Shown: positions 2-10,704 of the stretch, one piece after another
Numbering within the stretch: the stretch's first letter is position 1
Layout of the letters: each line of letters starts with the position of its first letter
NCBI GenBank assembly: GCA_903916205.1
Contig: CAIWVX010000180.1
Coordinates: 1-10,704 of the forward strand
DNA length: 10,704 nt
Direction of reading: 5' to 3'
Source: an uncultured beta proteobacterium
GTDB taxonomy: Bacteria > Pseudomonadota > Gammaproteobacteria > Burkholderiales > Rhodocyclaceae
Notes under the pieces: generated by a model
The model's database searches: none
Told to the model about the DNA's origin: nothing
The model's input: the letters and a program-made list of their open reading frames with translations, nothing else
Program-made: the position numbers and the translations under genes

Positions 2-892
2 TGCGCTGGCTTCATTGGCAAAAAATTCGACGGCCAGTTAGCCGCTACTGACGCCGCTTGGATCAAGCCCTTGCGCGAGGCCGCATCTCGCATTGCCGAA
101 GCCTACGAACAACGCGAATTTGGCCGCGCCCTGCGCGAAATCATGGCCTTAGCCGACGCCGCCAATGTCGTGGTTAACGACCGCAAACCCTGGGAACTGG
201 CCAAACAAAACGGCAAAGAGACCGAGTTGCAAGCGGCCTGTTCGGAGGCCATCGAAGCCTTTCGTCTGCTGACGCTTTATCTGAAACCGGTACTACCCAA
301 AGTCGCCGAAGCCGTTGAAGATTTTCTCGGCATTGCCCCACTGACCTGGGGCGACGTGGCAACGCCGCTGCCCGTCGGCCACACCATCAAAAACTACAGC
401 CACCTGATGACACGCATTGACCCCAAACTGATCACCGCACTCGTCGAAGCCAACAAAACCTCGCTGACCCCAAGCGAAGCGCCAGCCCCGGCGGCAACCC
501 AAGCCACACCGGCTCCCTCTGTAGTCGCCGCCGAAAATAATCTCATCAACATCGACGACTTCATGAAAGTCGATCTGCGCATTGCCCGCATTGTCGACGC
601 CGGTCATGTCGAAGGCGCCGAAAAGCTGATTCGTCTGTCGCTAGACATCGGCGAAACAGAAAATGGACAAATGCGACCGCGCCAAGTGTTTGCCGGCATC
701 AAATCGGCCTACGATCCGGCGCTACTCATCGGCCGCATGACGGTCATGGTTGCCAATCTAGCCCCGCGCAAAATGAAATTCGGCCTGAGCGAAGGCATGG
801 TTCTCGCGGGTTCAGACACCGAAGGCCAAACCCCCGGTATTTTCTTGCTGACGCCTGACGCCGGAGCGCAGCCGGGAATGCGAGTCAAGTAA
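2..892 (+). CDS. metG: Methionyl-tRNA synthetase, C-terminal part (partial, 5' end outside window)
   Basis: The frame is open from base 2 to TAA at 890-892, giving 296 residues of the C-terminal part of cytoplasmic MetRS, which charges tRNA-Met with methionine. The internal TTG at 71 is not the start; the catalytic Rossmann domain lies upstream of the window. Visible first is the helical anticodon-binding domain: [11 protein letters not shown] includes the Trp (codon 191-193) equivalent to the one that reads the CAU anticodon in E. coli MetRS. An Ala/Pro-rich linker (about bases 475-535) leads to a C-terminal EMAP/Trbp111-like OB-fold tRNA-binding domain, with the motifs [21 protein letters not shown] and [15 protein letters not shown]. 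This appended domain is known to dimerise MetRS and strengthen tRNA binding. The gene ends 46 bp before the next + strand gene with no terminator visible, so read-through into the downstream operon is possible. Identity is secure. Confidence 0.97.
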
Positions 893-938: not shown

Positions 939-1187
939 ATGCAAAAAATCCAGCGACCACAATTGACCTTGAAAATTCTGTTCTACGCGGCGTTCGACGT
1001 GGCCGGAATGTTGGCGTTTGCCACAGGAGCATTGTGGCTCGTGCGCAAACAAGCGCTGCTCGTTGAGGGGTTTCCGACCAGTACCGCTGAAGCCGTGATT
1101 CTCACCCTCGCCGGGCTTCTGCTGATGCTCTGGGCCGCTGCGCAAATTATGCGCGAGTTATTTATTCGCCCGACCAACCATGTCTGA
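939..1187 (+). CDS. Small two-helix membrane protein at head of Hyf-like operon, function unknown
   Basis: An 82-residue protein that I cannot assign to a named family. It has two clear hydrophobic segments, about residues 13-35 and 51-70. A basic N-terminus (KIQRPQLTLK) precedes the first, RKQ follows it, and the C-terminus ends in charged residues (RELFIRP). By the positive-inside rule both ends would be cytoplasmic with a short loop between. Its 3' end overlaps the hyfB start by 8 nt (ATGTCTGA), so translation is probably coupled and the product may be a subunit or assembly factor of the same complex. The ATG at 939 has only a weak, distant purine stretch upstream (916-919), so the start is less certain than the frame. 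It sits first in the operon, where E. coli hyf has the ferredoxin gene hyfA, but has no cysteine and cannot bind an Fe-S cluster. Confidence 0.75.
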   Translation: MQKIQRPQLTLKILFYAAFDVAGMLAFATGALWLVRKQALLVEGFPTSTAEAVILTLAGLLLMLWAAAQIMRELFIRPTNHV

Positions 1188-3189
1188 AATCAGCCTACTC
1201 GACGGGATTTTAATCACCGCTTCAAGCTGGTTGGTGATTGGGTTGACTGGGGCTGTTTTCTCGAACCGTTTTAGTCTCATCACCCGCGTACTTTTCCCGC
1301 TCGGCGCGGCGCTCGGTGTTCTGCTTGCGCTGCTCGCACTGTCCAGCATGGGGGGTGGAATGCAAGTACGTACTCTGCCGCTCGGCCTGCCCGGCGCACC
1401 GTTTCATCTGCGCCTCGATGCGCTTTCGGCCTTCTTTCTCTTTTTGCTTGGTGCCACTTCCGCCGGTATTTCAATTTATACAGCGGGCTATTTGCGCCGC
1501 AACGAGGGGCCGGCGCCTGGCTTGCAATGTCTGCTTTTCCATGTGTTCTTAGCCAGCATGTGTTTCGTCATGCTGGCCGACGACGGCTATGCCTTTATGG
1601 TGGCCTGGGAGTCGATGGCGCTTAGTTCGTATTTCTTGGTGACCTCAGAACATCATCATGCAGAAATCCGTCGGGCGGGCTATCTTTACCTGCTGGTGGC
1701 GCACATTGGAGCCATCGGCATCCTGCTCTCTTTCGGCGTAATGGCCGGGAGTGCCGGTGACTATACCTTCGACGCCATGCGAAAATTTTCGACCCTTGGC
1801 AGCTTGCCGACTATCGCCTTTCTGCTGGCGCTGTTTGGGTTCGGTGCCAAGGCCGGTATTTTGCCGCTGCATGTTTGGCTCCCCGAAGCGCACCCCGCCG
1901 CGCCCTCGCCGATTTCCGCGATGATGAGCGGCGTCATGCTAAAAACCGCCATCTACGGCCTGCTACGCGTCAGTTTCGATCTGCTCTACGCTCAGATCTG
2001 GTGGTGGGGGCTTCTGCTGTTGGTTATCGGCCTAATCAGCGCTTTGTTCGGCGTTATTTTCTCGGCGATTCAAAACGATATGAAACGCCTGCTGGCCTAT
2101 TCCTCGATTGAAAATATCGGTTTGATTTTTGTCGGTTTTGGATTGACACTGATTTTTAATTCGTTCCTATTGCCGCATCTGGCGGCACTGGCGCTCACCG
2201 CGACCCTCTATCACTGCCTGAACCACGCTTTTTTTAAAAGCCTACTGTTTCTGTGCTCGGGTTCCGTGTTGCACGCCACCGGCGAGCGCAACTTGAGCAA
2301 ACTCGGTGGGCTAATTCATCGTATGCCGTGGGTCACTTGGCTCGCGCTGATTGGCGTTTTGGCCTCGACTGGTCTGCCGCCACTCAACGGATTTATTTCG
2401 GAATGGCTATTGCTGCAAAGCTTTCTGTTCACCTCCGGCTTGCCGCAAGGCTATCTCCACATGTTGCTCCCGGTTGCGGCGGCGGCGGTGGCCTTGATCG
2501 CGGCGCTGGCGGCTTTTGCTATGGTCAAATTTTTCGGCGTGGTTTTTCTCGGTCAGCCGCGTGAGCAAAAATTGGCACAAACGCACGACGCCGGAATTTT
2601 CGAACGTATCGGTCTACTTTGGCTGGCGCTCGGCTGCGTCCTGCTCGGTCTACTGCCTAATAGCGTCATTGCTTTACTTGATCCAGTCACCCGTTTGCTC
2701 GTCGGTAGCAGCCTGATTTCTGCGGCCAGCAGTCATGGCTGGTGGTTACTGGCCCCGATCAGCGAAGATCGCGCCAGCTACAGCGCGGCCATTTTGTTTG
2801 GCAGTCTGGCGCTATTCATTCCCGCCTTGTTTTTTACCGTCAAATCGTTTTACCACGGACGCCAGAAGCGCGTTCCGCCTTGGGATTGCGGTTTTCCGCT
2901 GCAAACACCGCGTATGCAAGACACCGCCGAAGGTTTTGGGCAGCCGATCCGGCGTATTTTCTCCTCCTTCATGCGCCGCTCACGCGAGCACCCCAGCCCA
3001 TTCGACGCTCAGCCGCGTTACCGCAGCGTGGTCGAAGATCCTTTCTGGTACTGGATTTACCTGCCCATCGCCCGGCTGGTCGAGCACGGCACACGGCTGA
3101 TCGCCTTCCTCCAGCACGGACGAATCGCCATTTATTTGCTCTACAGCTTCGTCACCCTGCTCGCGCTTCTGGTTATAACAAAAGGGTGA
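1180..3189 (+). CDS. hyfB: Hydrogenase-4 component B-like proton antiporter subunit (NuoL/MrpA family)
   Basis: A 669-residue polytopic inner-membrane protein of the complex I/Mrp antiporter family, of HyfB/HycC type. In this family it forms one ion-translocating channel of the membrane arm. Key residues are present: E144 in VAWESMALSSYF, aligning with the conserved Glu of NuoL/NuoM, and K224 in GFGAKAGILPLHVWLPEAH, the conserved Lys of the broken helix, followed by the hallmark PAAPSPISAMMSGVM stretch. A second core stretch, about residues 290-320 (QNDMKRLLAYSSIENIG), is also typical. The C-terminal region carries the HyfB signature WDCGFPLQTPRM near residue 568 and a last hydrophobic helix at the end. 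The length matches HyfB (about 670). It starts inside the preceding 82-aa gene (8-nt overlap) and is followed 4 nt later by hyfC. Family is certain; whether H+ or Na+ is moved cannot be read. Confidence 0.93.
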   Translation: MSEISLLDGILITASSWLVIGLTGAVFSNRFSLITRVLFPLGAALGVLLALLALSSMGGGMQVRTLPLGLPGAPFHLRLDALSAFFLFLLGATSAGISIYTAGYLRRNEGPAPGLQCLLFHVFLASMCFVMLADDGYAFMVAWESMALSSYFLVTSEHHHAEIRRAGYLYLLVAHIGAIGILLSFGVMAGSAGDYTFDAMRKFSTLGSLPTIAFLLALFGFGAKAGILPLHVWLPEAHPAAPSPISAMMSGVMLKTAIYGLLRVSFDLLYAQIWWWGLLLLVIGLISALFGVIFSAIQNDMKRLLAYSSIENIGLIFVGFGLTLIFNSFLLPHLAALALTATLYHCLNHAFFKSLLFLCSGSVLHATGERNLSKLGGLIHRMPWVTWLALIGVLASTGLPPLNGFISEWLLLQSFLFTSGLPQGYLHMLLPVAAAAVALIAALAAFAMVKFFGVVFLGQPREQKLAQTHDAGIFERIGLLWLALGCVLLGLLPNSVIALLDPVTRLLVGSSLISAASSHGWWLLAPISEDRASYSAAILFGSLALFIPALFFTVKSFYHGRQKRVPPWDCGFPLQTPRMQDTAEGFGQPIRRIFSSFMRRSREHPSPFDAQPRYRSVVEDPFWYWIYLPIARLVEHGTRLIAFLQHGRIAIYLLYSFVTLLALLVITKG

Positions 3190-3193
3190 GCTG

Positions 3194-4147
3194 ATGAATT
3201 TTTACGCCATTTTTGCCCAATTTCTTGAACTGCTGATCGCTTTGATCATGGCGCCAATGCTCAATGGCTGGGTCAACCAATGCCGGGCCTGGCTACAAAA
3301 CCGTTCGGCACCACCGCTGTTGCAAACCTATTACACGCTGAACAAGCTATTTAACAAAGAAGTCTTGCTGGCCCACAACGCCTCTTCGCTATTTCGCGCC
3401 GCGCCTTACATCATCTTTTCGTGCATGGCCTTGGCTTCGGCCATTGTTCCAACGCTATCCACCGACCTCATTTTTTCGCCCGCCGCCGACGCCATCGCTC
3501 TGGTTGGCCTGTTCGCCTTGGCTCGCGTCTTCATTGCGCTGGCCGGGATGGATGTTGGCACCGCCTTCGGCTCACTCGGTGCACGACGTGAAATGTTGAT
3601 TGGCTTCCTAGCCGAACCGGCCTTGCTGATGGTTTTCTTTACGGCTTCGCTCATCTCGCAATCGACCTCGCTATCGACCATCGTAGAAACCTTGGCGCAC
3701 CGCGAATTTGCTATTTTCCCAAGCTTGGCTTTTTCCGGGGTCGCCTTCACGATGGTCTCGCTGGCCGAAAACTCCCGCGTTCCGGTCGACAACCCGACCA
3801 CCCACCTCGAACTCACGATGATTCATGAAGCCATGATTCTTGAATACTCAGGCCGCCATTTGGCGCTCATCGAGTGGGCCGCCTGCCTCAAATTGTTTGC
3901 CTATTCGTGCCTCGGCATTGCGCTGTTTTTCCCCTTCGGCATCCCCGAAGCCGCCGACCCGGCGTCCCTAGCCCTCGCTGGCCTCATCCTGATTTTGAAA
4001 CTGACTATCGGCGGTTTTCTACTGGCGCTGATCGAAACCCTGAGCGCCAAAATGCGCATTTTCCGCGCCCCGGAGTTTCTCGGCACCGCCTTCCTACTCG
4101 CGGTTCTAGCCATGCTGGTGCATCTATTGCTGGAGGCCGGGCTATGA
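3194..4147 (+). CDS. hyfC: Hydrogenase-4 component C-like membrane anchor subunit (NuoH/HycD family)
   Basis: A 317-residue polytopic membrane protein of the complex I subunit 1 (NuoH)/HycD/HyfC family, which docks the peripheral arm to the membrane arm. Family stretches are clear: LNKLFNKE near residue 50; GMDVGTAFGSLGARREMLIG in the middle, followed by FLAEPALLM; and ENSRVPVDNPTTHLELTMIH followed by EAMILEYSGR, rich in the acidic residues that line the NuoH connecting cavity. The length is normal for HyfC (about 315). The ribosome-binding site GGTGAG overlaps the hyfB stop codon (3187-3189) and lies 4-5 nt before ATG 3194, which supports this start and coupling. The stop overlaps the hyfE start by ATGA. 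In complex I this subunit also shapes the quinone chamber; whether a quinone is used here is unknown. Confidence 0.93.
   Translation: MNFYAIFAQFLELLIALIMAPMLNGWVNQCRAWLQNRSAPPLLQTYYTLNKLFNKEVLLAHNASSLFRAAPYIIFSCMALASAIVPTLSTDLIFSPAADAIALVGLFALARVFIALAGMDVGTAFGSLGARREMLIGFLAEPALLMVFFTASLISQSTSLSTIVETLAHREFAIFPSLAFSGVAFTMVSLAENSRVPVDNPTTHLELTMIHEAMILEYSGRHLALIEWAACLKLFAYSCLGIALFFPFGIPEAADPASLALAGLILILKLTIGGFLLALIETLSAKMRIFRAPEFLGTAFLLAVLAMLVHLLLEAGL
4132..4136 (+). promoter_or_regulatory. Ribosome binding site fixing the hyfE start
   Basis: A perfect GGAGG lies inside the 3' end of hyfC, 7 nt before ATG 4144. The hyfE frame stays open far upstream (a possible ATG at 3874), so this site, the ATGA overlap with hyfC and the usual HyfE length decide that translation starts at 4144. 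Confidence 0.8.
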
Positions 4148-4824
4148 ACTTAGTCTTACTTCACAGCATTTCGCTCAACAGCCAAGTCATCAACCTATGT
4201 GCCGCCATCATGCTCTTGCTGGCCTTTGCCATGCTCGCCCAGCGCCGCATCCTGACCTTAATCAATCTCTTTATGCTACAAGGAATGGTGCTCTTTGCCT
4301 CAACGCTGATCGTCGCGCTGACCACGCATCAGAGCCATCTACTGTGGTCAGCGGGATTAACCTTGATCCTTAAAGTCATCGCGCTGCCTTACATCCTGCA
4401 CCGCTTGATCCGCCGTCTGTCGGTCAAATGGGACATCGAAACCCTGCTTAACATTCCGACCACGATGCTGATCGGCATCGCTTTAGTGGTTATCGCCTTC
4501 AACGTGGCACAGCCGATTTCCCAACTTTCGGGCACCATCACCCGGGCCACCATAGGCATTGCGCTGGCTTGCGTGTTGCTGGCTTTCCTGATGATGATTA
4601 CCCGCAGCAAGGCGGTGCCGCAGGTCATCGCTTTTCTGTCGATGGAAAACGGCCTGTTTTTTGCCGCCACCAGTGCCACTTATGGCATGCCGATGGTCGT
4701 TGAACTCGGTATCGCCCTCGATGTCATGGTCGGCATGGTCATTCTCGGCGTGTTCTTTTTCCAAATCAGGCAGCAATTTGACAGCCTCGATATCCGACAT
4801 ATGGAGAGGATCAAGGAAGAATGA
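4144..4824 (+). CDS. hyfE: Hydrogenase-4 component E-like membrane subunit
   Basis: A 226-residue, very hydrophobic membrane protein that matches HyfE in length (about 216 in E. coli) and position between hyfC and hyfF. In the HyfE family the N-terminal part resembles NuoK (the small MrpC-like subunit). Here LNSQVINLCAAIMLLLAFAM and the helix after RRILTLINLF fit that part. Two long hydrophobic blocks follow, and then the conserved stretch AFLSMENGLFFAAT with a membrane-embedded Glu and GIALDVMVGMVILGVFFF. The tail QQFDSLDIRHMERIKEE is hydrophilic and probably cytoplasmic, as in HyfE. The start is set by GGAGG at 4132-4136. It overlaps hyfC by 4 nt at the start and hyfF by 4 nt at the end (both ATGA). 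Confidence 0.9.
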   Translation: MNLVLLHSISLNSQVINLCAAIMLLLAFAMLAQRRILTLINLFMLQGMVLFASTLIVALTTHQSHLLWSAGLTLILKVIALPYILHRLIRRLSVKWDIETLLNIPTTMLIGIALVVIAFNVAQPISQLSGTITRATIGIALACVLLAFLMMITRSKAVPQVIAFLSMENGLFFAATSATYGMPMVVELGIALDVMVGMVILGVFFFQIRQQFDSLDIRHMERIKEE

Positions 4825-6272
4825 TCGAACTGGCCAGCGTTATCGCCATTCCTTTTGTCACGGCTTTGGTCTTGGCCCTGGTGGGGCATCGCCGCTGGGC
4901 CGCCGAGATTAACATCCTCGGCAGTCTGCTGACCTTGATTGCTGCCGGAATGCTGACCCTCAAAATCGTCAACCACGGCTCGATGATCCTTTTTGACGAG
5001 CAATTTTTTATCGACCCGCTCAATGTTTTTCTAATTGCGCTAACCGCCTTTGTTGGCTTCACCACCGCGCTTTTTTCACGCCCCTACATCCGTATCGAGC
5101 AGGACAAAGGACGCTTGTCATCGGGCCGTTTACGGCTTTACCACAGCATGTTTCAGATGTTTATGTGCACCATGCTGGTGGCGCTCTCCACCAACAACCT
5201 CGGGATTTTATGGGTGGCGATGGAAACCGCGACCCTAACGACCGTGCTATTGGTTGCGCTCTACCGCACCCCGGCCAGCCTTGAAGCGGCCTGGAAATAT
5301 TTCATCCTGTGCGGTGTCGGCATTGCCCAAGCCTTATTTGGCACCATTTTGATTTATTTCGCCGCCGAACAGATGCTTGGCCCCGAGGGCGGGGCCTTGT
5401 TATGGACACACCTCAACGCCGTCAAATACGACCTTGAACCGACGGTTCTCTCTTTGGCTTTCATCTTCCTGTTTGTCGGTTACGGCACCAAAACAGGTCT
5501 GGTGCCGCTGCACAACTGGCTGCCCGACGCTCACGCCGAAGGCCCGACGCCGGTTTCCGCCGTCCTCTCCGGTTTACTGCTCAACGTCGCGCTTTACGCC
5601 ATTATTCGCTGCAAGGTGCTGGTTGACGGGGCGCTGGATACGCGCTTTGCCGGCCATTTGATGATGGCTTTCGGCTTGCTGACCATCGTGGTTCCGGCCT
5701 TCTACCTGTCACGCCAAAAAGACATCAAGCGGCTTTTTGGTTACTCGTCAATCGAACACATGGGCTTAATCACCTTTGCTTTCGGCATGGGCGGCCCGGT
5801 CGCCAACTTTGCCGGATTGCTGCACATGACCGTCCACTCACTGACCAAATCAGCGATTTTCTTCACCGTCGGTCACGCCGCACAAATGGCGGGCACCCAG
5901 ACTATCGAAGACATCAAAGGGCTAATCAAGCGTTCGCCGAGTATGGGCTGGGGCCTGATGCTCGGCACGCTGGCCATTCTTGGAATGCCCCCCTTCGGCG
6001 TATTCACCAGCGAATTCATGATCCTAACCACGACGATCAAACATTACCCGTGGGCCACCCCGATCGTGCTAATCGCGCTGGGCGTGGCTTTTGCCTCTCT
6101 GTTCCACAAAGTGCAAGGCATGACCTTCGGTGAGCCAAACATCAAGCCGCTATCGCACAATCCGGCCTTGCTGCCGGTCTTTTTACATCTCGGGCTGGTG
6201 CTCATGCTCGGTCTGTGGATACCGCCCTACCTTGCCGACTGGTTCCGACAAGCGGCTAAATTCATCGGATAA
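4821..6272 (+). CDS. hyfF: Hydrogenase-4 component F-like proton antiporter subunit (NuoL/M/N family)
   Basis: A 483-residue polytopic protein of the complex I antiporter family, HyfF type, the second predicted ion channel of the complex. Conserved residues are in place: E135 in LWVAMETATLTTVLL and K224 in GYGTKTGLVPLHNWLPDAHA, followed by EGPTPVSAVLSGLLLNVALY. The core stretches RQKDIKRLFGYSSIEHMGLI and LLHMTVHSLTKSAIFF carry the further Lys and His residues typical of the channel. The C-terminus (PPYLADWFRQAAKFIG) resembles the short HyfF end, without the long lateral helix of NuoL. ATG 4821 overlaps the hyfE stop (ATGA), with AAGGA at 4813-4817. Eight nt separate its stop from hyfG. Confidence 0.93.
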   Translation: MIELASVIAIPFVTALVLALVGHRRWAAEINILGSLLTLIAAGMLTLKIVNHGSMILFDEQFFIDPLNVFLIALTAFVGFTTALFSRPYIRIEQDKGRLSSGRLRLYHSMFQMFMCTMLVALSTNNLGILWVAMETATLTTVLLVALYRTPASLEAAWKYFILCGVGIAQALFGTILIYFAAEQMLGPEGGALLWTHLNAVKYDLEPTVLSLAFIFLFVGYGTKTGLVPLHNWLPDAHAEGPTPVSAVLSGLLLNVALYAIIRCKVLVDGALDTRFAGHLMMAFGLLTIVVPAFYLSRQKDIKRLFGYSSIEHMGLITFAFGMGGPVANFAGLLHMTVHSLTKSAIFFTVGHAAQMAGTQTIEDIKGLIKRSPSMGWGLMLGTLAILGMPPFGVFTSEFMILTTTIKHYPWATPIVLIALGVAFASLFHKVQGMTFGEPNIKPLSHNPALLPVFLHLGLVLMLGLWIPPYLADWFRQAAKFIG

Positions 6273-6280
6273 GCGCGGCC

Positions 6281-7828
6281 ATGCAATTTCTCGATCAAGC
6301 CATTGAATTCCAGCCATTAAGCGGCCAAGCCACGCCGACCTTCACCGCCCAAGTGACGGATGACGAACTGCAAGCCTTCTGTCAAGCCGTCCGCCACGCC
6401 CAACGCCGACTGGTGGCGCTCTGGGGCAGCGACCAACGGGATCGTCACGCAACGCACGGTTACGCCTTGCATACCGCCTTTGATTTAGTCGAAGGGCTGG
6501 TCTGCCTGACGTTGCCACTGGCCACAGAAAACCCGACCTTTCCCGATCTATCTCAGTTTTTCCCCGCCGCCAAGCGCATGCAGCGCACCGTCCGTGATCT
6601 GCTTGGGGCCACTTCAGAAGACAGCGACCAACGCCCTTGGCTGCGCCATGCCAACTGGCCGGAGGATCACTACCCCTTACGCCGCGATACCCCTGACGCA
6701 CACTTTGAAAATCAAAATGAAATCTATGATTTTGTCCGCGTCGAAGGCGACGGCGTGCACGAAGTGGCCGTTGGGCCGATTCACGCCGGAATCATCGAGC
6801 CGGGGCATTTTCGCTTTTCGGTCATCGGCGAAGGCGTGTTGCGCCTCGAAGAACGTCTCGGCTGGAAACACAAAGGCATCGAGCGCCGCTTTGTCGGCAT
6901 GACTTTAGTCGAGGGAGCACAACTCGCCGGTCGTGTCTCCGGCGATTCAACAGTCGCCTACGCCTGGGCCTACAGTCAGGCCGCTGAAGCCATCAGCCAA
7001 ACCACGCCACCGGCCCGCGCCCTCTGGCTGCGGGCGCTGCTGCTCGAACGCGAACGCATTGCCAACCACTTGGGTGACTTAGGCTATCTCGGCAACGATG
7101 TCGCGCTGGCCTTCGGATTGATGCAATTCATGCGCCTCAAGGAAGACTGGGTGCGGCTCAACGCCACCCTGTTCGGCCACCGCCTGTTGATGGATCGCAT
7201 TATTCCCGGCGGCGTCAGTGTCGATCTGGAACCCGACGGCATCCAAGCCATCAACCAGCAATGCCATAGGGTTGAGCAGGAAGTGCGCTCGCTAAAGAGC
7301 ATTTATGACGAACACGCCGGTCTTCAAGATCGTTTTCTCACCACCGGATGTATCCCGCCGCCGCTCGCCGCGCAACTGGGGGTCATTGGTCTGGCCGGAC
7401 GCGCCAGCGAGCAGCGCTGGGATCAACGCTGCAATCACCCGTGCCAACCTTATGTCCAACTGGCCCCGAAGATGGCGATTGAAGCCAACGGCGATGTCGC
7501 CGCACGAGCGCTGGTGCGCTTTGCCGAAATAGTCGAATCACTGAACTTAATCCGCACAATCCTCCGCGATCTACCCAGTGGCGCACTCCGTGCCGAGGTA
7601 CGCAGCGCCGCCGACCAACGGGGTTTCGGCTGGATCGAAGGCTGGCGTGGTGACATCCTAGTGGCGCTAGAAACCGGCAGCGATGGCAAGCTTCGGCGCG
7701 GCCACTGTCACGACCCGTCCTGGCAGAATTGGCCGGCATTAGAACACGCGGTCATCGACAACATCGTTCCCGATTTCCCGCTAATCAACAAATCGTTCAA
7801 CCTTTCTTACTCTGGAGCCGATCTCTAA
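6281..7828 (+). CDS. hyfG: HyfG/NuoCD-like large subunit lacking Ni-Fe ligands (Ehr type)
   Basis: A 515-residue fusion like HycE/HyfG. About residues 1-140 form a NuoC-like (30-kDa) domain, ending in FPAAKRMQRTVRDLLG and WPEDHYPLRRD. The rest is the NuoD/hydrogenase large-subunit domain: GPIHAGIIEPGHFRF (H168), EERLGWKHKGIERRF, LERERIANHLGDLGYLGND and PGGVSVDL. Catalytic hydrogenases have RxCGxC in motif L1; here it is R218-V-S220-G-D-S223. They have DPCxxC in motif L2; here it is N507-L-S509-Y-S-G512. All four Ni-ligating cysteines are therefore absent. The protein ends at GADL515, directly after motif L2, so there is no tail for a HycI-type endopeptidase. This matches the 'energy-converting hydrogenase-related' (Ehr) group. 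Cysteines elsewhere (C384-NHP-C388, H475-C-H477) are not in ligand positions. The ribosome-binding site before ATG 6281 is weak. It overlaps the next gene by one base (TAATG). Confidence 0.92.
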   Translation: MQFLDQAIEFQPLSGQATPTFTAQVTDDELQAFCQAVRHAQRRLVALWGSDQRDRHATHGYALHTAFDLVEGLVCLTLPLATENPTFPDLSQFFPAAKRMQRTVRDLLGATSEDSDQRPWLRHANWPEDHYPLRRDTPDAHFENQNEIYDFVRVEGDGVHEVAVGPIHAGIIEPGHFRFSVIGEGVLRLEERLGWKHKGIERRFVGMTLVEGAQLAGRVSGDSTVAYAWAYSQAAEAISQTTPPARALWLRALLLERERIANHLGDLGYLGNDVALAFGLMQFMRLKEDWVRLNATLFGHRLLMDRIIPGGVSVDLEPDGIQAINQQCHRVEQEVRSLKSIYDEHAGLQDRFLTTGCIPPPLAAQLGVIGLAGRASEQRWDQRCNHPCQPYVQLAPKMAIEANGDVAARALVRFAEIVESLNLIRTILRDLPSGALRAEVRSAADQRGFGWIEGWRGDILVALETGSDGKLRRGHCHDPSWQNWPALEHAVIDNIVPDFPLINKSFNLSYSGADL

Positions 7829-8343
7829 TGTTCCCGATGCTGCGCCAAATCGTCCGTACCGGCATCCTCTCCGAGCCGCAGCCTAAAGCCGATGACCGTT
7901 TGCGTACCCGCACTCAAAAGCTCTCCGAAACGGTACTCAAACAACTCGGACGGGCCTTGGTCATCCGCCACATAGACGCCGGATCATGCAATGGCTGTGA
8001 GCTAGAAATCCACGCCCTGAACAACCCGTATTACAACCTTGAGTCCATCGGCATCAAATTCGCGGCCAGTCCGCGCCACGCCGATCTATTAATGGTCACC
8101 GGCCCGGTGGCTAAAAACATGGAAGTCGCCGTCAAGCGGGCTTATGACGCCACCCCGGAACCCAAACTCGTCGTCGCCGTTGGCGAATGCGGGTGCACCG
8201 GAGGCATTTTCGGCGAGAGTTATGCCTCGTGCGGACGCGTCGCCAACGTCATCCCGGTCGACGTTTCCATCCCCGGCTGCCCGCCTACGCCCCTACAACT
8301 AATCGAAGGCATTTTGGCCGCGCTGCTTCCAACGCCAACGTAA
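7828..8343 (+). CDS. hyfI: HyfI/NuoB-like small subunit with one predicted [4Fe-4S] cluster
   Basis: A 171-residue soluble subunit of the NuoB/HycG/HyfI family, which carries the cluster nearest to the active site at the junction with the large subunit. Ligand cysteines are visible: C54-N-G-C57 in DAGSCNGCELEIHALNNPYY, C121 in VGECGCTGGIFGESYASCG, and C151 in PGCPPTP. The CxxC spacing is the hydrogenase (HycG/HyfI) form, not the adjacent Cys pair of NuoB in complex I. LLMVTGPV is also a family hallmark. The frame runs upstream into hyfG, but ATG 7828, overlapping the hyfG stop as TAATG with GGAG at 7813-7816, gives the usual start. It is the last gene of the operon and is convergent with a - strand gene whose stop is 27 nt away. 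Confidence 0.94.
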   Translation: MFPMLRQIVRTGILSEPQPKADDRLRTRTQKLSETVLKQLGRALVIRHIDAGSCNGCELEIHALNNPYYNLESIGIKFAASPRHADLLMVTGPVAKNMEVAVKRAYDATPEPKLVVAVGECGCTGGIFGESYASCGRVANVIPVDVSIPGCPPTPLQLIEGILAALLPTPT

Positions 8344-9958: not shown

Positions 9959-10704
9959 TTAGTTAAAAAGGGCTATGGTATCGAAAACATACGACCCTAG
10001 CGGGTTGCCCGCTAGGTCAGTTATGTCATTTCCAGTCAAACCAATTTGGCTGTACGTGACTGATGCTGCGCTAATTGAGGCAGGGGCCCTCCATAATTTG
10101 TATACCTTGGGATCGATCGCGCTTTGTGTGAGGGTGTCTAGTGCTGGGTCTTGGAGATGACTTGCGGTTGATGTTGATTTCCATCCAGTGAGACCAGTAA
10201 CGTCGCTATCATCAAAGGATTTGACCTCTTCAGAGAAAGTAAAGGTGAAACAGACGTCGTCGGTATAATTACCACTAGCAGCACTAGAGGCGTACGTGCT
10301 ATGAGCGGGGTCGTAAGTCGCACTATCGGTAATCACGACCGTCGGGGCCGTGTTGTCGACTTTATAGTTCGAGTTAGAACCGACCTTATTGTAAGAAGTG
10401 CTCGCTATCGTCGCTTTATTACCGGCTAAATCAGTCATATAAAGCTCACTGGCAGCGATCCATTCCGTAGTCAAGTAACCGATGCCGATGCCGTCAGTAT
10501 CCGTGTCACCCGAGGCAATGGTGTAGGTAAAATAAAGCAGACTGGAATTGAGCCCGCTCGCATAGCGCGCAATTTTCTGGCTATTATTAAAATTTAGGTT
10601 AATGAAGTGCTCTAAAGGTTGGGAGGAGATCACGTTTTCGCTCATCGTCACCGCCACGGTGACGACATCGCCCTGGTTCAAGAAACTGCTTTGCACCCCA
10701 GAGA
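9959..10704 (-). CDS. Large Ig-like-repeat surface protein, C-terminal fragment (partial, 5' end outside window)
   Basis: The frame is open from the window edge to TAA at 9961-9959, 247 residues of the C-terminal end; the GTG at 10696 is internal. At least two bacterial Ig-like repeats are visible. The first has GDVVTVAVTMSENV, then LYMTDLAGNKATI. The linker YKVDNTAPTVVITDSATYDP opens the second, which has CFTFTFSEEVKSFDDSDVTG and ends in ITDLAGNPLGSYVFDTIALF. The 'VDNTAPTV... FTFSEEV... FDxSDVT... DLAGN' pattern is common in very large secreted or surface adhesins of proteobacteria. The protein stops right after the last repeat, with no RTX repeats, LPxTG-like signal or membrane anchor in view, so how it is exported is unclear and the end may be truncated. 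Base composition is visibly more AT-rich than the Hyf-like operon. A function in adhesion is inferred only from the repeats. Confidence 0.75.
   Translation of the reverse strand, partial: SGVQSSFLNQGDVVTVAVTMSENVISSQPLEHFINLNFNNSQKIARYASGLNSSLLYFTYTIASGDTDTDGIGIGYLTTEWIAASELYMTDLAGNKATIASTSYNKVGSNSNYKVDNTAPTVVITDSATYDPAHSTYASSAASGNYTDDVCFTFTFSEEVKSFDDSDVTGLTGWKSTSTASHLQDPALDTLTQSAIDPKVYKLWRAPASISAASVTYSQIGLTGNDITDLAGNPLGSYVFDTIALFN
9996..10016. repeat. Perfect 9-bp inverted repeat with 3-nt loop, inside the adhesin-like gene
   Basis: CCTAGCGGG (9996-10004), TTG, CCCGCTAGG (10008-10016). It lies about 35 bp from the stop codon, in the codons for DLAGNPLG, and could form a hairpin in DNA or mRNA. 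No T-run follows closely on either strand, so it is not a classical terminator. Confidence 0.7.
10645..10665. repeat. Second perfect 9-bp inverted repeat with 3-nt loop, inside the adhesin-like gene
   Basis: TCGTCACCG (10645-10653), CCA, CGGTGACGA (10657-10665). It lies in the codons for DVVTVAVT of the upstream Ig-like repeat. It has the same stem and loop lengths as the repeat at 9996-10016 but a different sequence. Confidence 0.7.

Follow-up and report, generated by a model that had tools for sequence, protein, structure and literature searches.

Ehr (energy-converting or Ech hydrogenase-related) complexes were reportedly treated by Coppi in 2005 and by Marreiros et al. in 2013. In published members, a large subunit without Ni-Fe ligands is combined with a HyfI/NuoB-like small subunit and a HyfB/C/E/F-like membrane arm, and the available parts of the sources that describe them agree with a preliminary description of the DNA studied here that their substrate and reaction are not established (PMC6349859; PMC10284858; PMC7894505). 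The same set of subunits is found in the window, which is the whole stretch of 10,704 nucleotides that was analysed (G000:C180:1-10704; G-numbers denote genomes, G000 being the window's own, and L-numbers the loci compared). At positions 1180-8343, six tightly ordered genes encode HyfB-, HyfC-, HyfE-, HyfF-, HyfG- and HyfI-like products. The large subunit, encoded by ehrL, has lost its Ni-Fe ligands and the new residues are conserved, while the predicted fold, the cluster cysteines of the small subunit, Glu173 and the charged residues of the pump are retained. The window complex almost certainly belongs to the Ehr family, and we are equally confident that it is not a hydrogenase.

The ehrL frame (6281..7828, forward strand) runs uninterrupted from the ATG at 6281 to the TAA at 7828 and encodes a HyfG/HycE/NuoCD-like protein of 515 residues (PF00346, 105.6 bits; PF00329, 42.4 bits). 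Its L1 motif (6932..6949, forward) reads R218-V-S220-G-D-S223, replacing RxCGxC, and its L2 motif (7799..7816, forward) reads N507-L-S509-Y-S-G512, replacing DPCxxC. All four [NiFe] ligand positions are thus changed, to S220, S223, S509 and G512. In a phmmer alignment with E. coli HycE (chain 7z0s_E; E 1.4e-56), RVCGIC is matched to RVSGDS and DPCYSC to NLSYSG, and a MAFFT alignment with HycE, HyfG and NuoCD yields identical L1 and L2 columns, as the preliminary description had read them when it proposed that the four cysteines were replaced.

An alignment of 255 Ehr large-subunit rows (the window protein, 119 proteins from searches and 135 from loci) bears out this replacement. Ligand cysteines are absent from 241 rows, one is present in 14 and two in none. 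Position 220 is S in 242 rows and C in 13, position 223 is S in 222, T in 27, A in five and C in one, and position 509 is S in 245 and A in nine. G221 and D222 are invariant, N507 is N and G512 is G in 253 rows each, and R218, N503, K504, S505 and D514 are constant wherever a row has a letter. Glu173, the proton-path Glu, is retained in the window protein. The lone Cys at the first L1 position (RVCGDS) occurs in 13 of the 255 large subunits, among them L133, P0031, P0040 and P0042. The window protein's own seven cysteines, each common to 6-188 of the rows, all lie outside the ligand columns, and they were rejected as substitute ligands. The stretch RCNHPC looked promising as a ligand source and was also discarded, C384 being present in 108 and C388 in 144 of the 255 rows. 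That ehrL could be a hydrogenase-derived pseudogene or carry a sequencing error has a negligible probability: the frame is intact, the starts of neighbouring genes overlap and the replacement motifs are conserved over the whole alignment, with no point found in its support, which agrees with the earlier view that this is not a decayed gene.

In the PDB, the closest solved relative of ehrL is E. coli HycE, and the fold is also near NuoCD; scores fall from 195.7 bits for HycE to 91.6 for MBH and 78.2 for Thermus NuoD. In a carefully built tree all 27 ligand-less large subunits compared, including that of the window, form one clade (support 100/99), from which five cysteine-bearing formate hydrogenlyase (FHL) subunits branch apart (90/78). 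Within the ligand-less clade, seven rows associated with fluoride riboswitches group together (91/96), as do the remaining 20, including the window (99/94). The long rows L149, L157, L164, L150 and L163 are possibly misplaced even in this tree. The absent ligands, the Ehr-type subunits in the operon and the position outside the FHL subunits together support the proposed assignment to the Ehr class. The warning that a "hydrogenase 4" label would mislead was also justified, as the NCBIfam models for subunits B and F of "hydrogenase 4" exceed their cut-offs for the membrane subunits of the window. Ehr may be an evolutionary bridge between complex I and group 4 hydrogenases, as the preliminary description put forward; a loss of the cysteines in Ehr separate from that in complex I would fit as well, because ehrL scores higher against HycE and NuoD carries other residues at the replaced positions.

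The small subunit, EhrS, is a HyfI/NuoB-like protein of 171 residues (7828..8343, forward; PF01058, 107.6 bits) whose start overlaps the ehrL stop (TAATG). It keeps the cysteines of the proximal [4Fe-4S] cluster (C54, C57, C121 and C151), which are present in all 140 rows of the window's branch, and its CxxC spacing is of the hydrogenase type, without the adjacent Cys pair of NuoB. The membrane arm, encoded on the same strand, consists of a hyfB-like antiporter subunit of the NuoL type with conserved charged residues (1180..3189, 669 residues; PF00361, 185.3 bits; NF005086, 868.3 bits, cut-off 667), a hyfC-like membrane anchor of the NuoH type (3194..4147, 317 residues; PF00146, 129.1 bits), a hyfE-like subunit whose start overlaps the hyfC stop (4144..4824; ATGA; NF008556, 82.1 bits, below the cut-off of 136) and a hyfF-like antiporter subunit of the NuoM/N type (4821..6272, 483 residues; PF00361, 178.1 bits; NF005045, 848.6 bits, cut-off 543). 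Many charged residues of the membrane subunits are conserved, some of them common with E. coli HyfB, HyfC and HyfF. The earlier statement that the rest of the operon is intact therefore holds for hyfB, hyfC, hyfE, hyfF, hyfG and hyfI, but not for hyfA, hyfD, hyfH and the maturation genes, none of which was recognised within the window. A CxxCxxCxxxC ferredoxin motif is absent from all six reading frames of the window. Among the open reading frames (ORFs) of loci L005-L161, the best matches to E. coli HyfH come only from L155 and L156, which are real FHL loci, and from L070, where the match is weak (57 bits) and on the opposite strand.

With modest confidence, we read the Ehr complex as an ion pump of six subunits that resembles complex I, with a cytoplasmic arm that descends from a group 4 [NiFe] hydrogenase and has lost its metal site. 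Ion translocation appears likely, and the complex is read most simply as a single-cluster pump to which a soluble carrier hands its electrons directly. As it keeps the cluster, the window's Ehr is probably still electron-driven in its own branch, where we lean slightly towards electron transfer being needed. A soluble low-potential donor such as ferredoxin would reduce the one [4Fe-4S] cluster and, as there is no HyfH, would bind to EhrS itself. Electrons would then go to a small acceptor bound where the Ni-Fe centre used to be, in a pocket with a putative polar lining of S220, D222, S/T223, N503, K504, N507, S509 and Y510 together with E173 and R456, and their flow would drive the movement of H+ (or Na+/H+) via HyfB, HyfF and HyfC, H2 being neither produced nor consumed.

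The physiological role may be, tentatively, a proton or ion balance under acid or anion load. Candidate loads are CO2/bicarbonate, suggested by relatives with SulP or carbonic-anhydrase-like neighbours, fluoride in a sister branch, and perhaps formate in Geobacter, in whose proteome Ehr subunits are more abundant on formate according to the available part of PMC7894505. Fluoride, CO2/bicarbonate and formate all belong to weak-acid systems, which would suit a pump by which pH or ion gradients are re-established. Such a role is possible and somewhat doubtful, and for the window itself we infer it.

The sister branch is known here from plasmid-borne relatives in M. branderi and B. cenocepacia, 30 to 35% identical to the window large subunit, whose neighbours are annotated as crcB, a voltage-gated chloride channel family protein, inorganic diphosphatase, enolase, a universal stress protein and DUF190; an Alicyclobacillus relative also adjoins crcB and DUF190. 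Of the ten sister-branch loci scanned with Rfam, nine (L149, L151, L153, L154, L157, L162, L164, L175 and L176) have the fluoride riboswitch RF01734 upstream, before either the operon or the gene for the large subunit, and the tenth, L158, is a contig end from which the upstream part is missing. L175 and L176 had been chosen by protein similarity alone, before the upstream scan. In L154 and L176, crcB stands between riboswitch and operon. The gene order is C-E-F-G-I-B in eight of the nine loci with an upstream part, and L164 has no recognised subunit besides the large one.

Outside this branch, Rfam gave no RF01734 in 18 Ehr loci (the window, L085, L086, L107, L113, L120, L145-L148, L150, L152, L160, L163 and L165-L168). 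A covariance model made here gave no match in the window or L005-L084, in a run where L149 and L151 served as positive controls, nor in L085-L148, L150, L152, L160, L163 and L165-L168, in a second run without such a control. This model (R1) was also blank in L170-L174, which are short fluoride-branch stretches without the upstream part (G045, G161, G306, G190 and G277); longer stretches were scanned for G306 and G277, and for G045 and G190 as L153 and L154, and the contig of G161 ends. No fluoride riboswitch was found in the window or elsewhere in G000, and fluoride control of the window operon was rejected. Window-type and fluoride-branch Ehr occur together in G010 (L114, L157), G045 (L100, L153) and G161 (L125, L158).

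Many homologues of the L151 large subunit are named "formate hydrogenlyase subunit 5", and ligand cysteines are present in none of the best 120 of 1859, in contrast to L155, L156 and L169, which are real FHL loci with the full set of four. By their sequences, the riboswitch-associated "formate hydrogenlyase" proteins compared here are Ehr. The riboswitch-associated enzyme is read as formate hydrogen lyase in the available part of a 2024 review (PMC11139923), and the absence of its Ni-Fe ligands is unstated in the literature searched, which left out preprints and most subscription papers.

Some Ehr small subunits also lack the cysteines of the proximal Fe-S cluster. The M. branderi small subunit is without all four cluster cysteines, and they are lacking in all of its best 120 homologues of 5037, the named ones of which are Mycobacterium or Mycolicibacter. 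The substitutes are D/N, D, D and mostly A/S, and an N-terminal CxxCxxC is retained in all 120. The Allomeiothermus small subunit has lost the four cysteines too; the subunits without them lie at L149:12513-13307 and L150:12254-13135. The small subunits of L151, L153 and L154 keep four, and that of L157 three. In proteins without any of the four, the known path for electrons to the old active site is cut. This mycobacterial loss was not found in the literature searched.

Ehr was surveyed in 250 genomes of the window's order (E <= 1e-20). Ehr-like large subunits were matched in 70 of them, 64 being of the window's type (about 317 bits and above, one match in two pieces), and the six weaker genomes were left out. 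Some genomes contain two distinct Ehr operons, near each other in L043, L053 and L094, and also in G103 (L129, L160) and G182 (L089, L090); the large subunit of the second type is about 45% identical. A replacement of complex I by Ehr was rejected, since all 250 genomes, G000 included, have a match to the NuoF-type PF10589.

Neighbours were compared in 123 operons of relatives with hyfB and the large subunit, 111 of which have at least 1.5 kb upstream; six of the 111 (L145-L148, L152 and L160) come from a plasmid collection or are of the second Ehr type. In 26 of the 111, hyfB is preceded on its own strand by a SulP gene whose end is under 700 bp away (81 to 350 bp as measured from the aligned parts), and no operon has one that near on the opposite strand. 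In 24, the gene immediately before the operon, on the same strand, is metG. When near-identical rows are removed, SulP remains in 21 of 101 operons, with at least 13 changes on a quick tree. SulP matched 133 stretches in 60 genomes; assuming roughly one gene per kb, chance alone would place such a gene beside well under 1% of operons. The SulP reference proteins are 24 to 82% identical to each other, which argues that different kinds of SulP were recruited. Upstream SulP genes occur in many lineages (L021, L033/L085, L086, L041, L066, L088, L107, L116, L120 and others). The link between SulP and Ehr was not found in the literature searched.

SulP-linked operons are at times followed by a gene for a CsoSCA-like carbonic anhydrase. 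Carbonic-anhydrase-like genes are present at nine operon loci and RuBisCO at four, L033 and L085 being one contig in both counts, and the protein matches CsoSCA weakly (Pfam 30.8 bits, cut-off 21.5; PDB E 6.2e-5). In G014 and G243, RuBisCO is located some 6.4 kb past the large-subunit gene of Ehr, and in the Thiobacillus locus L066 about 8 kb past it, but few loci show this. Among the surveyed genomes, RuBisCO is found in 43 of 64 with window-type Ehr and 49 of the 186 others (odds ratio 5.7), and HypD in 39 of 64 and 39 of 186 (odds ratio 5.9), leaving 25 Ehr genomes with no HypD match.

Several observations weigh against an electron-driven pump that serves acid or anion balance. The electron-input subunit is not encoded, and no redox partner was recognised among the neighbour clusters recurring in at least four of 80 relatives' loci; these rest on mechanical gene calls, not all of them were identified, and some that look antisense or out-of-frame (such as c5, c8, c12 and c16) were not used. 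The predicted loops 163-176 and 491-515, the latter bearing L2, are of low confidence in the model. The cysteine loss in the mycobacterial sister branch speaks against a redox mechanism for the family as a whole. Where Thermus Nqo4/NuoD has its quinone ligands His38 and Tyr87, each of the 255 rows has I and G instead (I172 and G221), and complex I-style quinone binding in Ehr appears unlikely. The best PDB matches of one SulP are sulfate and SLC26 transporters, with 6ki1 (BicA) ranking lower, which points to no particular SulP substrate. The window has metG upstream, not SulP; the ten near-kin loci compared have metG in eight cases and SulP in none, one being cut off upstream. Neither beside the window operon nor beside those of its near kin were SulP, carbonic-anhydrase-like or RuBisCO genes found. 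Since the window and its near kin lack SulP and the window lacks the riboswitch, the neighbour evidence stems from relatives. The association with RuBisCO may be confounded, lifestyle being a sufficient explanation, because HypD is associated to an equal degree.

Some of these points favour a mechanism that is not redox driven, in which the cytoplasmic arm would link ion flow to acid-base chemistry or to transport, by analogy with CO2 hydration in DAB/DAC. The small subunits without cluster cysteines in mycobacteria (best 120 of 5037) and Allomeiothermus, and the SulP, carbonic-anhydrase-like and fluoride genes among the neighbours, are consistent with it, but the four cysteines in 140 of 140 rows of the window's branch are hard to explain without electrons, a structural role being possible, and the mycobacterial proteins all keep their N-terminal CxxCxxC. 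Nor was a gene of the DUF2309 type (DabA), the partner of the NuoL-like subunit in the DAB/DAC CO2 complex, recognised in the window (no Pfam match among the ten window proteins scanned). We consider this mechanism rather unlikely, and just as speculative is the wider notion that Ehr complexes are anion/acid-stress machines, some of them non-redox, with a fluoride-inducible branch misread as formate hydrogenlyase and the window's branch serving bicarbonate/CO2 or pH balance.

An emptied pocket could also accept a hydrophobic acceptor, so that Ehr would act as a quinone or polysulfide reductase like complex I or MBS. MBS, without a Ni-Fe site, reduces sulfane sulfur at the proximal cluster according to the available part of PMC7684303, and the fold of the large subunit is near NuoCD. 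Given the lack of the complex I quinone ligands in every row, the polar nature of the conserved pocket residues and the hydrogenase-like CxxC spacing without the NuoB pair, this function is unlikely. Still less probable is a respiratory unit of formate dehydrogenase and Ehr, like that proposed for Margulisbacteria/Saganbacteria in the available part of PMC6349859. The increase of Geobacter Ehr subunits on formate would suit it, but formate dehydrogenase was recognised neither in the window nor among the identified clusters recurring in at least four of the 80 loci. The electron-driven ion pump remains the reading that we prefer.

The host draft genome, G000 (2.25 Mb, 501 contigs, 79% complete), is Propionivibrio-like, and the closest relatives of the window are Propionivibrio, Accumulibacter and other Rhodocyclaceae. 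The top protein match is 84% identical (among the best 120 of 8000 scored), and that on a named Rhodocyclaceae contig 79%. The window copy is the sole match to the PF00346 profile in G000, perhaps by reason of the incompleteness of the genome, in which HypD, PF00374 and RuBisCO also gave no match; the one SulP match is on another contig, and a PF10589 match lies elsewhere in the genome. Upstream of the operon, the window carries the C-terminal part of methionyl-tRNA synthetase (71..892, forward; PF01588, 74.2 bits) and a hydrophobic ORF of 82 residues that overlaps the hyfB start (939..1187, forward; no Pfam or NCBIfam match). Among 124 upstream regions, this ORF has five full-length homologues and one fragment, all upstream of hyfB in Propionivibrio/Accumulibacter-type loci, a restriction on which it was rejected as a general Ehr subunit; a shortened copy is present in L005. 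Downstream, a frame on the reverse strand (9959-10696) contains DNTAP and DLAGN stretches that by eye resemble Ig/cadherin-like surface-protein repeats.

Ehr is thus common, its window type being carried by about a quarter of the genomes surveyed in this order (64/250), and its complexes are annotated as hydrogenase or NADH dehydrogenase, with a reaction that the sources cited at the outset, in their available parts, leave unestablished. From the riboswitch, fluoride can be predicted concretely as the inducer of one branch, and the recurrent SulP neighbour is a second lead, so that growth and pH assays could address an open question on complex I relatives. With corrected labels, the doubtful inference that fluoride-responsive operons encode formate-to-H2 metabolism would disappear, as would false calls of hydrogen metabolism in genome surveys. 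If the non-redox mechanism were true, the mycobacterial members would be a complex I-like machine without a known redox route to the old active site.

Compared with published Ehr complexes, genes for formate dehydrogenase, NuoE and NuoF were not recognised beside the window operon. E. coli formate hydrogenlyase and hydrogenase 4 (HycE/HyfG) differ from the window system in having the four Cys ligands, HyfA, HyfD, HyfH and the maturation genes. Complex I (NuoCD/NuoD) shares with the window the fold and homologues of NuoB, NuoH and the antiporter subunits, but no genes of an NADH module were recognised in the window. The fluoride-riboswitch "formate hydrogen lyase" (PMC11139923, in its available part) is placed by the tree in the branch sister to the window's Ehr, and is distinguished by its C-E-F-G-I-B gene order, its riboswitch and, where read, a longer small subunit with an N-terminal extension. 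The MBS of Pyrococcus is likewise a group 4 relative with Mrp-like subunits that has lost the Ni-Fe site. According to the available part of PMC7684303, MbsL keeps two of the four cysteines and has no equivalent of E21; the window protein, by contrast, keeps no ligand Cys but keeps the Glu.
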